Shown in pieces: positions 29-3,726 of a DNA stretch of 23,477 nt. How positions within the stretch are numbered: the first letter of the stretch is position 1; the number at the start of each line of letters is the position of its first letter. The DNA is taken from positions 1 to 23,477 of the IMG/VR virus record IMGVR_UViG_3300045135_002024; one strand, 5' to 3'. This stretch comes from a virus. The notes beneath the pieces were generated by a model, which saw only the letters and a list, made by a program, of their open reading frames with translations, searched no databases and had not been told where the DNA came from. The translations under genes and the position numbers were made by a program.

Positions 29-886
29 ATGAGCAAAGAAACGCTATTTGTATCGTTTTCAGGTGGTCGCACTTCCGCTTATATGTGTTGGTGGCTGCTG
101 AATCATAAGGCAGATGATTACGATTTTATTTTCGTGTTTGCCAACACTGGCCAAGAGCACGAAAAGACGCTCGACTTCGTGAATGAGTGTGACAAGCGTT
201 TTGGCCTTAATTTGGTTTGGCTTGAGGCTGTCATTGATATGCGCCCAAACAAAGGAACTACGCACAAAATAGTAACTTATGATTCAGCCTCAAGAAATGG
301 CGAGCCATTCGCTGCAATGATTCAGAAATACGGCATCCCTAACACTGACTGGCCTCATTGCAATAGAGAATTAAAGATTGTAACGATCAATAGCTACATG
401 CGCTCTTTAGGGTTTAAGGTTTCAACTCCGCGAGCCATAGGCATTAGGTCGGACGAAGCCGATAGAATGAATTTTGATGCAGTTAAAAAGGGCGAAATAA
501 TATACCCACTTATTAAATGGCATCCCATTACAAAAGAAGAAATACGCCATTGGTGGGCGGGTCAAAGCTTCGATCTTGAAGTGCCTGAGCATTTAGGAAA
601 TTGCGTTACATGCTGGAAGAAATCAAACAGAAAGCTAATGACAATTGCAAGACAAGAGCCAGAACGGTTTGAGTTTTTTAGGAGTCAAGAGAGGCATGGG
701 AACATAACGCCAAGACAGGACGAATTTCGGGTTTTCTTTAGAGGGCATAACACTGTTGATGATATTTTTGAAATGGCAAAAAGCGACTTCAAAGAGTTTC
801 AAGATGGTATGCCAGAATTACAGCTAAGGCTTTTAGACCCTATCGACTTTACAAATGGCTGTGAAGAATCATGCGAAGCAGCATAA
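29..886 (+). CDS. PAPS reductase-family PP-loop ATPase (phage type)
   Basis: A 285-residue protein of the adenine nucleotide alpha-hydrolase superfamily. Seen: the PP-loop SGGRTS at residues 11-16 directly after the first beta strand, then FANTGQEHEKTLDF (residues 37-50), typical of phosphoadenosine phosphosulfate (PAPS) reductase-like proteins. Three cysteines are placed as in phage members: C111 (PHCNREL), C192 and C195 (GNCVTCWKK). Such proteins activate a substrate by adenylation. In assimilatory PAPS reductase the product is sulfite, but phage homologues are mostly uncharacterised and may act in sulfur transfer to nucleic acid or cofactor. Start: ATG after AGAGG at about 8 bases. The zinc-ribbon gene follows after 12 bases, so they are probably co-transcribed. 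The family is confident; the substrate is unknown. The three cysteines could hold an Fe-S cluster, which is inference. Confidence 0.85.
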   Translation: MSKETLFVSFSGGRTSAYMCWWLLNHKADDYDFIFVFANTGQEHEKTLDFVNECDKRFGLNLVWLEAVIDMRPNKGTTHKIVTYDSASRNGEPFAAMIQKYGIPNTDWPHCNRELKIVTINSYMRSLGFKVSTPRAIGIRSDEADRMNFDAVKKGEIIYPLIKWHPITKEEIRHWWAGQSFDLEVPEHLGNCVTCWKKSNRKLMTIARQEPERFEFFRSQERHGNITPRQDEFRVFFRGHNTVDDIFEMAKSDFKEFQDGMPELQLRLLDPIDFTNGCEESCEAA

Positions 887-1387: not shown

Positions 1388-1566
1388 TACGCATGGCCGA
1401 AGAAGATGAGACTTTTTTTATAGGCCGGTTTTACGAGGATTGTGCTGCAACCACTCTAGCTTGCAAAAAGTGTGGCGGTAAGTCGTTTAATGTCGGGCAA
1501 AGCTCTTACATCACTGTTATCAAATGTATTTCTTGCGACTGGCAGCTCGATATTCACAACGGTTGA
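1336..1566 (+). CDS. Small zinc-ribbon protein, acidic N-terminal part
   Basis: A 76-residue protein. Residues 10-35 are acidic and helical in character (PEFEDVIRMAEEDETFF). The C-terminal half holds a zinc ribbon: C43-K-K-C46 and C64-I-S-C67, with an aromatic strand between and W69 just after the second knuckle. C36 is extra. The ATG has no strong Shine-Dalgarno sequence, and the open frame 1199-1387 runs across the start, so coupling is likely. A second zinc ribbon near the first suggests nucleic-acid handling, but the sequence does not show which. Confidence 0.65.
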   Translation: MPRKKDENYRQPEFEDVIRMAEEDETFFIGRFYEDCAATTLACKKCGGKSFNVGQSSYITVIKCISCDWQLDIHNG

Positions 1567-1594
1567 AAACCTACAACCCATATAGGACTACTGA

Positions 1595-1670
1595 GCCTTA
1601 TATAGCCTTGATTTATAAGGCAATTGCACCCTTTTCAGTACGTGCTAAACGTGCCGTTTTAGGGCTATAT
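1595..1670 (+). repeat. Nested inverted repeats upstream of the early promoter
   Basis: Two perfect 8-base inverted repeats overlap. GCCTTATA (1595-1602) pairs with TATAAGGC (1614-1621). ATATAGCC (1600-1607) pairs with GGCTATAT (1663-1670). Because 1600-1602 is shared, only one can form at a time in a transcript. A weaker imperfect hairpin lies between (about 1645-1662). There is no T-run after the first stem, so it is not a standard terminator. The rest of the 1567-1783 gap holds the promoter and operator described separately. Confidence 0.5.
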
Positions 1671-1715
1671 GAATCAATGAGTTACGTGGTGGTTTCTTAA
1701 ATACCAACAATAAAC

Positions 1716-1746
1716 CAAAACAGTTGACATAACATAAACCGTTTTG
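1716..1746. promoter_or_regulatory. Operator-like dyad over the early promoter
   Basis: CAAAACAGTT (1716-1725) and AACCGTTTTG (1737-1746) are inverted copies matching at 9 of 10 positions, with half-site centres about 21 bases (two helical turns) apart. The left half covers the start of the -35 box and the right half abuts the -10 box, so a bound dimer would block RNA polymerase. A further CCGTTTT occurs upstream at 1654-1660. The likely ligand by proximity is the Cro-like HTH protein encoded at 2727-2909 in the operon this promoter drives; that is inference. Confidence 0.5.
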
Positions 1747-1752
1747 TATTAT
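1724..1752 (+). promoter_or_regulatory. Sigma70-type promoter of the small early operon
   Basis: A perfect -35 hexamer TTGACA (1724-1729) is followed after exactly 17 bases by TATTAT (1747-1752). Transcription would begin near 1759, giving a 25-base leader before the ATG at 1784. It is the strongest promoter I can see in the window. The dyad 1716-1746 overlaps it. It should drive the six genes from 1784 to 3297. Confidence 0.75.
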
Positions 1753-1783
1753 AACTCCACACTAACGAAACGGAGCAAGCGCC

Positions 1784-1981
1784 ATGAAAGACTTAAACAC
1801 TCAGCTAGAAGTTGCTAACACTATCTACGGTCAGCTAGTTGTACGCCTAGACCTTTTTGCTAGCGATGAGCATAACGCGCCAGTTATCGCTCTCATCGAG
1901 AAGCAGCTAGCTGAAATTGACCGCCTAGAGCGAACTTTGGCTATTAGGGCTGAAGTTAAGGCAATGAGAAAGGCCGCTTAA
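1784..1981 (+). CDS. Small helical protein, first gene of the early operon
   Basis: A 65-residue protein I do not recognise. It has no cysteine and no membrane segment. It is almost wholly helical in character, with heptad-like spacing of leucines and isoleucines (LEVANTIYGQLVVRLDLF; IALIEKQLAEIDRLERTLAI), so a short helical hairpin or coiled coil is likely. Start: ATG with GGAG 8 bases upstream, about 25 bases from the predicted transcription start. The coding sequence is unusually rich in CTAG, with six copies. As the first gene after a regulated strong promoter it should be made early and in quantity. Confidence 0.7.
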   Translation: MKDLNTQLEVANTIYGQLVVRLDLFASDEHNAPVIALIEKQLAEIDRLERTLAIRAEVKAMRKAA

Positions 1982-2919: not shown

Positions 2920-3297
2920 ATGAGCAACAGAGATATAGAATCTATTATTGATTCATTGTGGGAAGAGTCAGCCCACGGAACGACAAGAGAAGATGTTACA
3001 AGGATATGGAATGCCGCAATAGAATATGCTGCTAAAGCTGTTTATGTTCAAAAGACTGAATCTAAACCAGATGAGCCAGAAGAAGGTCCGCACTATCTGG
3101 ATTTTTCTGTTTGGGATTTTGAATTTTCATCTAGGGCTAACAGCATTCTAGAGCGCGAAGGAATTAGGACCGCCAAGCAGTTGTGCTCAATGACGCACGT
3201 AGAGCTTAGAAAGTTTGGAGGGCTAGGCAAAAAAACGCTTAAAGAGATTATCGAGGTTGTTGAGGCTAGAGGGCTTGATTTTGGTATGAACCTATAA
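2920..3297 (+). CDS. Standalone RNA polymerase alpha C-terminal domain homologue
   Basis: A 125-residue protein. Residues 60-125 follow the alpha-CTD fold closely: LDFSVWDFEFSSRANSILER, then LCSMTHVELRKFGGLGKKTL, then EARGLDFGMNL, the counterpart of the ending ASRGLSLGM in E. coli RpoA. R72 lines up with R265, the main DNA contact. G103, K104 and K105 match the GKK helix-hairpin-helix that holds K298. The position of N268 is serine, with an asparagine beside it. Residues 1-55 form a separate helical, acidic domain (IIDSLWEESAHGTT...) in place of alpha-NTD, so the protein cannot assemble as a normal alpha subunit. Start: ATG 7 bases after AGGAG. Probably binds DNA and/or sigma and activators to redirect host polymerase. 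The domain call is strong; the role is inferred. Confidence 0.85.
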   Translation: MSNRDIESIIDSLWEESAHGTTREDVTRIWNAAIEYAAKAVYVQKTESKPDEPEEGPHYLDFSVWDFEFSSRANSILEREGIRTAKQLCSMTHVELRKFGGLGKKTLKEIIEVVEARGLDFGMNL

Positions 3298-3726
3298 ACC
3301 CACGTTAAAACTAAGCACCACAGCATCAAGGCCGAATAAAGCTAGGCTTGGTTTTAGCGGTAATCTGTGCGCTACGACTTCGGGCGCGAGCATTGGGCAG
3401 ACACCCCTATCTCCGTTTGAATGCCCTGTTTTTAAGCAGCCTCTATAGCCGTAAGTTAGGCCGCCATGTAGGTTAAACGTGAAAACGCTGTCCTGAGTGC
3501 TCCACGTTCGCCCTAGCGCAAAAGAATCATCATCGAAGCTGTTACGGAAGTAAGCCGCAAAGTAATTGTTATACGATGGCATGACCAAACGATGAAACGA
3601 ATTATAATCACCCTCGCTCATGTGCTGCGAGAAGCCGCCAACCTTTATGGATGTATCAGCATGAACATTCAGGCACAAAAAAACCGCGACTAGCGCGGCT
3701 GTTAGTTTGCGCGGCTGTCTATTCAA
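3292..3726 (-). CDS. Exported small protein, outer-membrane strand-like
   Basis: A 144-residue protein, last gene of the late strand. A clear Sec signal peptide spans residues 1-23: R3, R6, K7, hydrophobic TAALVAVFLCLNV, then the VHA cleavage motif. The mature part has alternating aromatic strands (GGFSQHM, YNNYFAAYFRNSF, FTFNLHGGLTYGY) and ends in the strand VVLSFNVGL, as in small outer-membrane barrels. C97 and C110 may form a disulfide. Start: TTG at 3726, overlapping the tail-fibre stop by 8 bases, needed to include the basic signal-peptide start; no good ribosome site is seen. It converges on the alpha-CTD gene with a 6-base overlap. Possible roles are surface alteration or superinfection exclusion. 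I cannot name the family. Confidence 0.6.
   Translation of the reverse strand: MNRQPRKLTAALVAVFLCLNVHADTSIKVGGFSQHMSEGDYNSFHRLVMPSYNNYFAAYFRNSFDDDSFALGRTWSTQDSVFTFNLHGGLTYGYRGCLKTGHSNGDRGVCPMLAPEVVAHRLPLKPSLALFGLDAVVLSFNVGL
3677..3698 (-). terminator. Intrinsic terminator inside signal-peptide codons
   Basis: On the minus strand CCGCG-ctagt-CGCGG (3698-3684) is followed by seven Ts (3683-3677). The 5-bp all-GC stem plus T7 is a convincing intrinsic terminator. It lies about 20 bases after the tail-fibre stop, but also inside codons about 10-17 of the signal-peptide gene that follows. Transcripts of the tail fibre would mostly end here unless ribosomes or an antiterminator prevent hairpin formation. 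Confidence 0.65.

Follow-up and report, generated by a model that had tools for sequence, protein, structure and literature searches.

The window, that is, the whole stretch of 23,477 nucleotides analyzed here, is an IMG/VR virus record (IMGVR_UViG_3300045135_002024) classed as linear. Its minus strand carries genes for a terminase, a portal, a major head protein, a head closure protein, and a DNA-ejection protein; the portal distantly resembles those of Pseudanabaena phages Pam1 and Pan3 and of phage CBW1004C-Prop1. On the plus strand, a cluster of small genes ends with a helix-turn-helix (HTH) gene followed by the gene of interest (2920–3297), an intact frame from ATG to TAA that encodes 125 aa, with a ribosome-binding site, AAAGGAG (2908–2914), 5 nt upstream of its ATG. 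This gene encodes an alpha-CTD without an alpha-NTD, and its place in a phage genome is indicated by the late genes for terminase, portal, and capsid and by a related contig with the same slot.

The cluster is preceded by a sigma-70 promoter, TTGACA-17-TATTAT (1724–1752, plus strand), which matches the consensus at 11 of 12 positions. Four ORFs without a confident family (1784–2725) are followed by the small HTH protein (2727–2909), which lies directly upstream of the alpha-CTD gene and belongs to phrog_10103 (E=1.6e-17), whose relatives occur in enterobacterial phages and are in some cases annotated as helix-turn-helix. No Rfam family scored above gathering in the operon. The make-up and orientation of the cluster suggest that it is expressed early, and the position beside an HTH gene given by the first-pass annotation was confirmed. 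The same annotation described the operon as self-regulated. An imperfect dyad with 16-nt arms (81%) overlaps the promoter (1710–1752) as a possible operator, which is weakly supportive; however, in the closest related phage contig, IMGVR_UViG_3300005611_000300 (L020; portal 82% identical), this element is not conserved as a dyad, and the promoter read from the sequence at that place is a different one, with the extended -10 TGGTATAAT. Autoregulation is therefore not established.

Two further frames flank the operon. Ahead of the promoter lies a 58-aa frame (1524–1700, plus strand), likely a small gene; its final ~35 residues and its stop codon are conserved in L020 (1–123). On the minus strand, by the gene's end, a 144-aa frame with a signal-peptide-like start (3292–3726) converges on the alpha-CTD gene with a 6-base overlap, and its end (3304–3351) is 94% identical in the relative.

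Identity of the alpha-CTD

Within the 125-aa protein, the Pfam profile PF03118 (RNA_pol_A_CTD) matches aa 54–115 (3079–3264) with a score of 45.4 bits (cut-off 23.8; E=6.9e-12), and the similarity to alpha extends to the C-terminus (aa 125). All matches to sequences of solved structures are RNA polymerase alpha chains, the best being the E. coli alpha-CTD (E=1.8e-8), to which the phage protein is 41% identical by tblastn. The alignment with E. coli alpha spans aa 43 to the last residue; it starts in a K/E/P-rich stretch that resembles the acidic interdomain linker of alpha and ends in RGLDFGMNL in the phage protein vs RGLSLGMRL in alpha.

An AlphaFold model built from an alignment of 23 sequences reached a mean pLDDT of 86.6, with values of ~96–97 in the blocks of the CTD and low confidence in the linker. 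The predicted CTD has the alpha-CTD fold with its helix-hairpin-helix, and Foldseek superposed it on the DNA-bound E. coli alpha-CTD (3n97_B, 3n4m_B) at 0.7 Å over 66 residues. By profile and predicted fold, then, the product of 2920–3297 carries a genuine RNA polymerase alpha-CTD, as first proposed from the sequence; the PF03118 match, the helix-hairpin-helix, and the R265-equivalent surface, on which that proposal had been made to depend, are all present.

The protein does not qualify as a full alpha subunit: with 125 aa and no alpha-NTD, it scores far below every NCBIfam rpoA cut-off. No PHROGs family was found for it. A chance origin of the gene was dismissed because an ortholog occupies the same operon position in the related phage.

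The ortholog and the N-terminal part

In the related contig, a PF03118 gene encoding 157 aa directly follows the same small HTH gene. At the DNA level, the two phages are 82% identical in both the leader and the HTH gene, 94% just downstream, and 67% in the CTD. At the protein level, the two CTDs are 59% identical, with identities of 0.68/0.86/0.46 at the three codon positions and with dN 0.31 and dS 1.23 (NG86); the resulting dN/dS of about 0.25 means that the domain is under purifying selection. No other ortholog was recovered: single- and two-protein scans of viral contigs and genome contigs returned nothing or that one ortholog only, the small HTH protein as query found the same related contig only, and a five-sequence alignment held no stretch conserved enough for scanning.

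The N-terminal parts of the two proteins show no detectable similarity, and their predicted helices also differ. In the window protein, this part (aa 1–46; 2920–3057) is modeled as helices 3–17 and 23–46, a fold prediction of moderate confidence without related sequences behind it, and is followed by a flexible acidic linker (aa 47–60; 3058–3099) of low pLDDT, with the alpha-linker similarity setting in from aa 43. The place of the alpha-NTD would be taken by a hairpin of two predicted helices and an acidic linker. The first 56 aa matched no Pfam family, the N-terminal part found no relatives among phage records and has no recognizable activity, and no HTH could be recognized in the protein; the proposed fusion to an unrelated N-terminal domain in place of the alpha-NTD holds. 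Dimerization through this part is a guess because helix 1 alone is clearly amphipathic (its value is reached by 2% of shuffled sequences). Judged from the two sequences, the N-terminal part is exchanged, or diverged past recognition, while the CTD is selected.

As a separate observation, the leader CACTAACGAAACGGAGCAA.CGCCATGAAAGA (window 1760–1791 vs L020 1069–1100) is 97% identical and stands before different genes in the two phages, which points to shuffling around the ribosome-binding site.

Other phage alpha-CTD proteins and the contact residues

Viral contigs were scanned with the exact patterns GLGKK[ST]LxEI and NLGKK[ST]LxEI, frames were then read, and full-length RpoA, short matches, and near-copies were removed. 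The resulting set holds 30 viral domains including that of the window, three of them cut at contig ends. Together with the window/ortholog pair, the motif scans yielded 27 complete non-redundant proteins of 101–283 aa, each with an alpha-CTD and without an alpha-NTD. Their partner domains include sigma-region-4-like HTH domains (L063, L052, L033, and, more weakly, L047), a Mor-like domain (L044), an Arc-like domain (L045), and long helical regions. Since the same contigs also carry phage DNA polymerase, RecT, primase, portal, and integrase genes, several of them are truly viral or prophage.

Several candidates were set aside. Motif hits regarded as chance or partial matches were L021, L026, L028, L030, and L032, in which a long protein has the short motif and nothing more, and also L024, L036, L056, L057, L068, and L072. 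Most apparent matches among annotated phage records turned out to be bacterial rpoA contigs (in MT837602, for instance, rpoA sits among ribosomal protein genes), and further ones were rejected as full-length RpoA. The domain tree comprises 67 columns, too short for counting captures, and only its pairing of the window protein with the ortholog (100/100) was used; it does not support a single origin, and its minimum of 3 changes is unreliable, two of its "phage" rows (gut92, gut94) being bacterial rpoA contigs.

Such proteins are already known by annotation. BFVD holds phage proteins named for the alpha-CTD domain, Bacillus phage vB_BmeM-Goe8 encodes an “RNA polymerase subunit alpha” of 210 aa (YP_009849950) with a C-terminal alpha-CTD, and ORF40 of Erythrobacter phage vB_EliS-L02 is mentioned as such an ORF without a functional test (PMC9127768). 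No functional study of phage alpha-CTD proteins was found in the full-text literature searched, outside which most subscription journals lie, in agreement with the first-pass remark that the domain is recorded in databases and mostly unstudied. The window protein is thus not a one-off; it adds a member to a group that many phages carry.

The alpha-CTD is the hub through which the bacterial polymerase reads UP elements and activators, and its contact residues are grouped into the 265, 261, and 287 determinants. R72 of the window protein (codon 3133–3135) aligns with R265 of alpha, and G103-K104-K105 (3226–3234) with G296-K297-K298; R72 as the R265 equivalent and GKK 103–105 as key DNA-contact positions had been named at first reading. 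The broader statement that the key DNA contacts are retained was only partly borne out: within the 265 determinant, R265, G296, K298, and E302 are kept and S299 is T, but N268 and C269 are S and I, and the further DNA-contact position N294 is G. Both acids of the 261 determinant, D259 and E261, are present in the window protein (as D66 and E68) and in the ortholog. Only part of the 287 determinant survives, with T285, E286, V287, E288, and R317 represented by T, H, V, E, and N.

Across the survey, all 29 viral domains that cover the R265 position have R there; the position lies outside the search motif, so its invariance is not built in. The invariance of G296, K297, K298, E302, and I303, by contrast, follows from the construction of the motif. 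N268 is kept in 18/30 domains and C269 in 22/30, while position 294 holds N in 23 domains and G in the other 7, the motifs restricting it mostly to N or G. All three residues are lost in the window protein and the ortholog and, elsewhere among the 30 domains, only in L027. Acids at both the D259 and E261 positions occur in only 5/30.

Possible roles of the free alpha-CTD

We consider it about 45% probable that the protein is an early modulator of transcription with which the phage provides an alpha-CTD in trans and, through sigma region 4 or promoter DNA, redirects or competes with the host polymerase. The N-terminal part would hold the protein on a partner, be it a second copy of itself or another phage or host protein. 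The CTD would dock next to the -35 region, where the D259/E261 pair would contact sigma-70 region 4 and R72 and K105 would touch nearby minor-groove DNA. In this position, it would substitute for the alpha-CTD of the host polymerase or compete with it, and the outcome would be reduced UP-element- or activator-dependent host transcription, favored phage promoters, or both.

Several lines of evidence argue for this role in trans. The profile and the predicted fold match; the ortholog keeps the CTD in the same operon slot under purifying selection; D259/E261, which contact R603 of sigma-70 (PMC5511352), are kept in both members although few viral domains have both acids; and R265 is invariant despite lying outside the motif. 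Moreover, fusions of the CTD with sigma-region-4-like or other DNA-binding domains are frequent among the viral relatives and lie close to genes for replication or recombination, and Goe8 carries its alpha-CTD gene in both terminal repeats. Because D259/E261 are kept while N268, C269, and N294 are lost, the residues suggest that the window lineage relies more on sigma contact than on canonical reading of UP elements. The same losses count against the model, since DNA binding may be weak, and the analysis identified no partner and no target promoter for the protein.

A somewhat unlikely alternative, which overlaps the modulator model and differs in where the activity is located, is that the CTD only anchors the protein to RNA polymerase or sigma and the variable N-terminal part recruits or inhibits another factor. 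The unrelated N-terminal parts in two orthologous slots with a conserved CTD, and the wide partner variety in other viral alpha-CTD proteins, are what such an adaptor would look like; the N-terminal part, however, has no activity that can be recognized.

Occupancy of UP elements, in which the protein would bind A/T-rich upstream elements and block or mimic the host alpha-CTD, now appears less likely than the first-pass annotation stated, and we regard it as unlikely. The fold prediction matches DNA-bound alpha-CTD structures (3n97, 9zum) and the R265, G296, K298, and E302 equivalents are in place, yet N268, C269, and N294 are replaced in both the window protein and the ortholog. In E. coli alpha, N268A and N268T abolish UP or PBAD function (PMC11434276), and R265 and N294 share a water-mediated DNA contact (PMC5511352).

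We rate as distinctly unlikely a generic helix-hairpin-helix DNA-binding module for replication or recombination, without a transcription role. A weak HHH_5 match (23.4 bits, under the cut-off of 27) and the location of some viral relatives near RecT, primase, or DNA polymerase genes are consistent with it. Against this, the alpha-CTD profile gives roughly double the score, the similarity enters alpha's linker and its final residues RGLxxGMxL, the sigma-contact residues are conserved, and the viral partners are often transcription-factor-like HTH domains.

Competition for activators, also proposed at first, would make the protein a sponge whose 287 surface titrates CRP-like host activators off the polymerase. 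The T285, V287, and E288 equivalents on which this part of the proposal can lean are present, but E286 is H and R317 is N, and this surface is not the same in the ortholog and is highly variable across phage domains, which makes this role improbable. That the gene is only the remnant, no longer functional, of an rpoA fragment taken from a host, as the long branch from hosts (1.27 changes per column in the 67-column domain tree) might suggest, is very improbable given the low dN/dS, the intact gene in two phages, and the good ribosome-binding site.

Returning to the role in trans, the comparison with bacterial RpoA delimits what the phage protein shares with its host counterpart: the PF03118 domain and fold, the acidic linker ahead of it, and the R265, G296, K298, E302, and D259/E261 equivalents. 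Unlike RpoA, it has no alpha-NTD and should not assemble into core RNA polymerase, and N268, C269, N294, E286, and R317 are changed. Phages are known to modify or cut alpha, as do T4 Alt/ModA (PMC2988021) and phiKMV-like Rac (PMC7552054). The T4 enzymes also act on alpha-CTD function, at R265 (PMC2988021), but they do so by ADP-ribosylating host alpha, whereas the window phage brings its own alpha-CTD.

The stand-alone alpha-CTD proteins named in BFVD and ORF40 of vB_EliS-L02 resemble the window protein in kind, although the named Foldseek phage matches have low identity to it (14–30%). Goe8 YP_009849950 likewise ends in an alpha-CTD that has R265 and follows an unrelated N-terminal part, but it is encoded in herellevirus terminal repeats, shows GQRS instead of GKKS, and has another N-terminal domain. 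Its gene (L081/L083) is present twice, lying in both repeats. Phage and plasmid HTH + alpha-CTD proteins (L063, L052, L047, L033, and Acinetobacter WP_163146529) also carry the module in a small regulator-like protein, to which, unlike in the window protein, a -35-type HTH is added.

More broadly, we tentatively propose, while regarding it as rather doubtful, that phages repeatedly took promoter-contact modules of the polymerase (the alpha-CTD, often with a sigma-region-4-like HTH) for free-standing regulators, and that the window lineage shifted from DNA reading to sigma-70 capture, with a swappable N-terminal part, D259/E261 and R265 kept, and N268/C269/N294 dropped. Of interest here are the wide range of partner domains, the lack of any variation at R265, and the way in which the window lineage keeps residues for sigma contact but loses residues for DNA contact; this partner-swapped set with predicted contact residues makes phage redirection of transcription by a free alpha-CTD directly testable.

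Individual loci add further detail. L063, L052, L047, and L033 each unite, in a single small protein and apart from the polymerase itself, the modules with which RNA polymerase contacts the -35 region and UP elements. In L045 (4717–5463, plus strand), with a near-copy in L065, an N-terminal Arc-like ribbon-helix-helix precedes the C-terminal alpha-CTD. L055 (9561–9983, plus strand) encodes a stand-alone alpha-CTD protein with yet another N-terminal domain, and the portal of its contig belongs to phrog_156, the portal family of the window. In Ruegeria phage vB_RpoS-V16 (L082, 2426–3292), an annotated pyrophosphatase starts with a diverged alpha-CTD-like domain, which is N-terminal and not C-terminal; both this phage and Goe8 are available in culture. 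Finally, the window contains a phosphoadenosine phosphosulfate reductase-like gene (29–886, plus strand; phrog_424), and such a gene also adjoins the HTH + alpha-CTD gene of the Acinetobacter plasmid locus L004.
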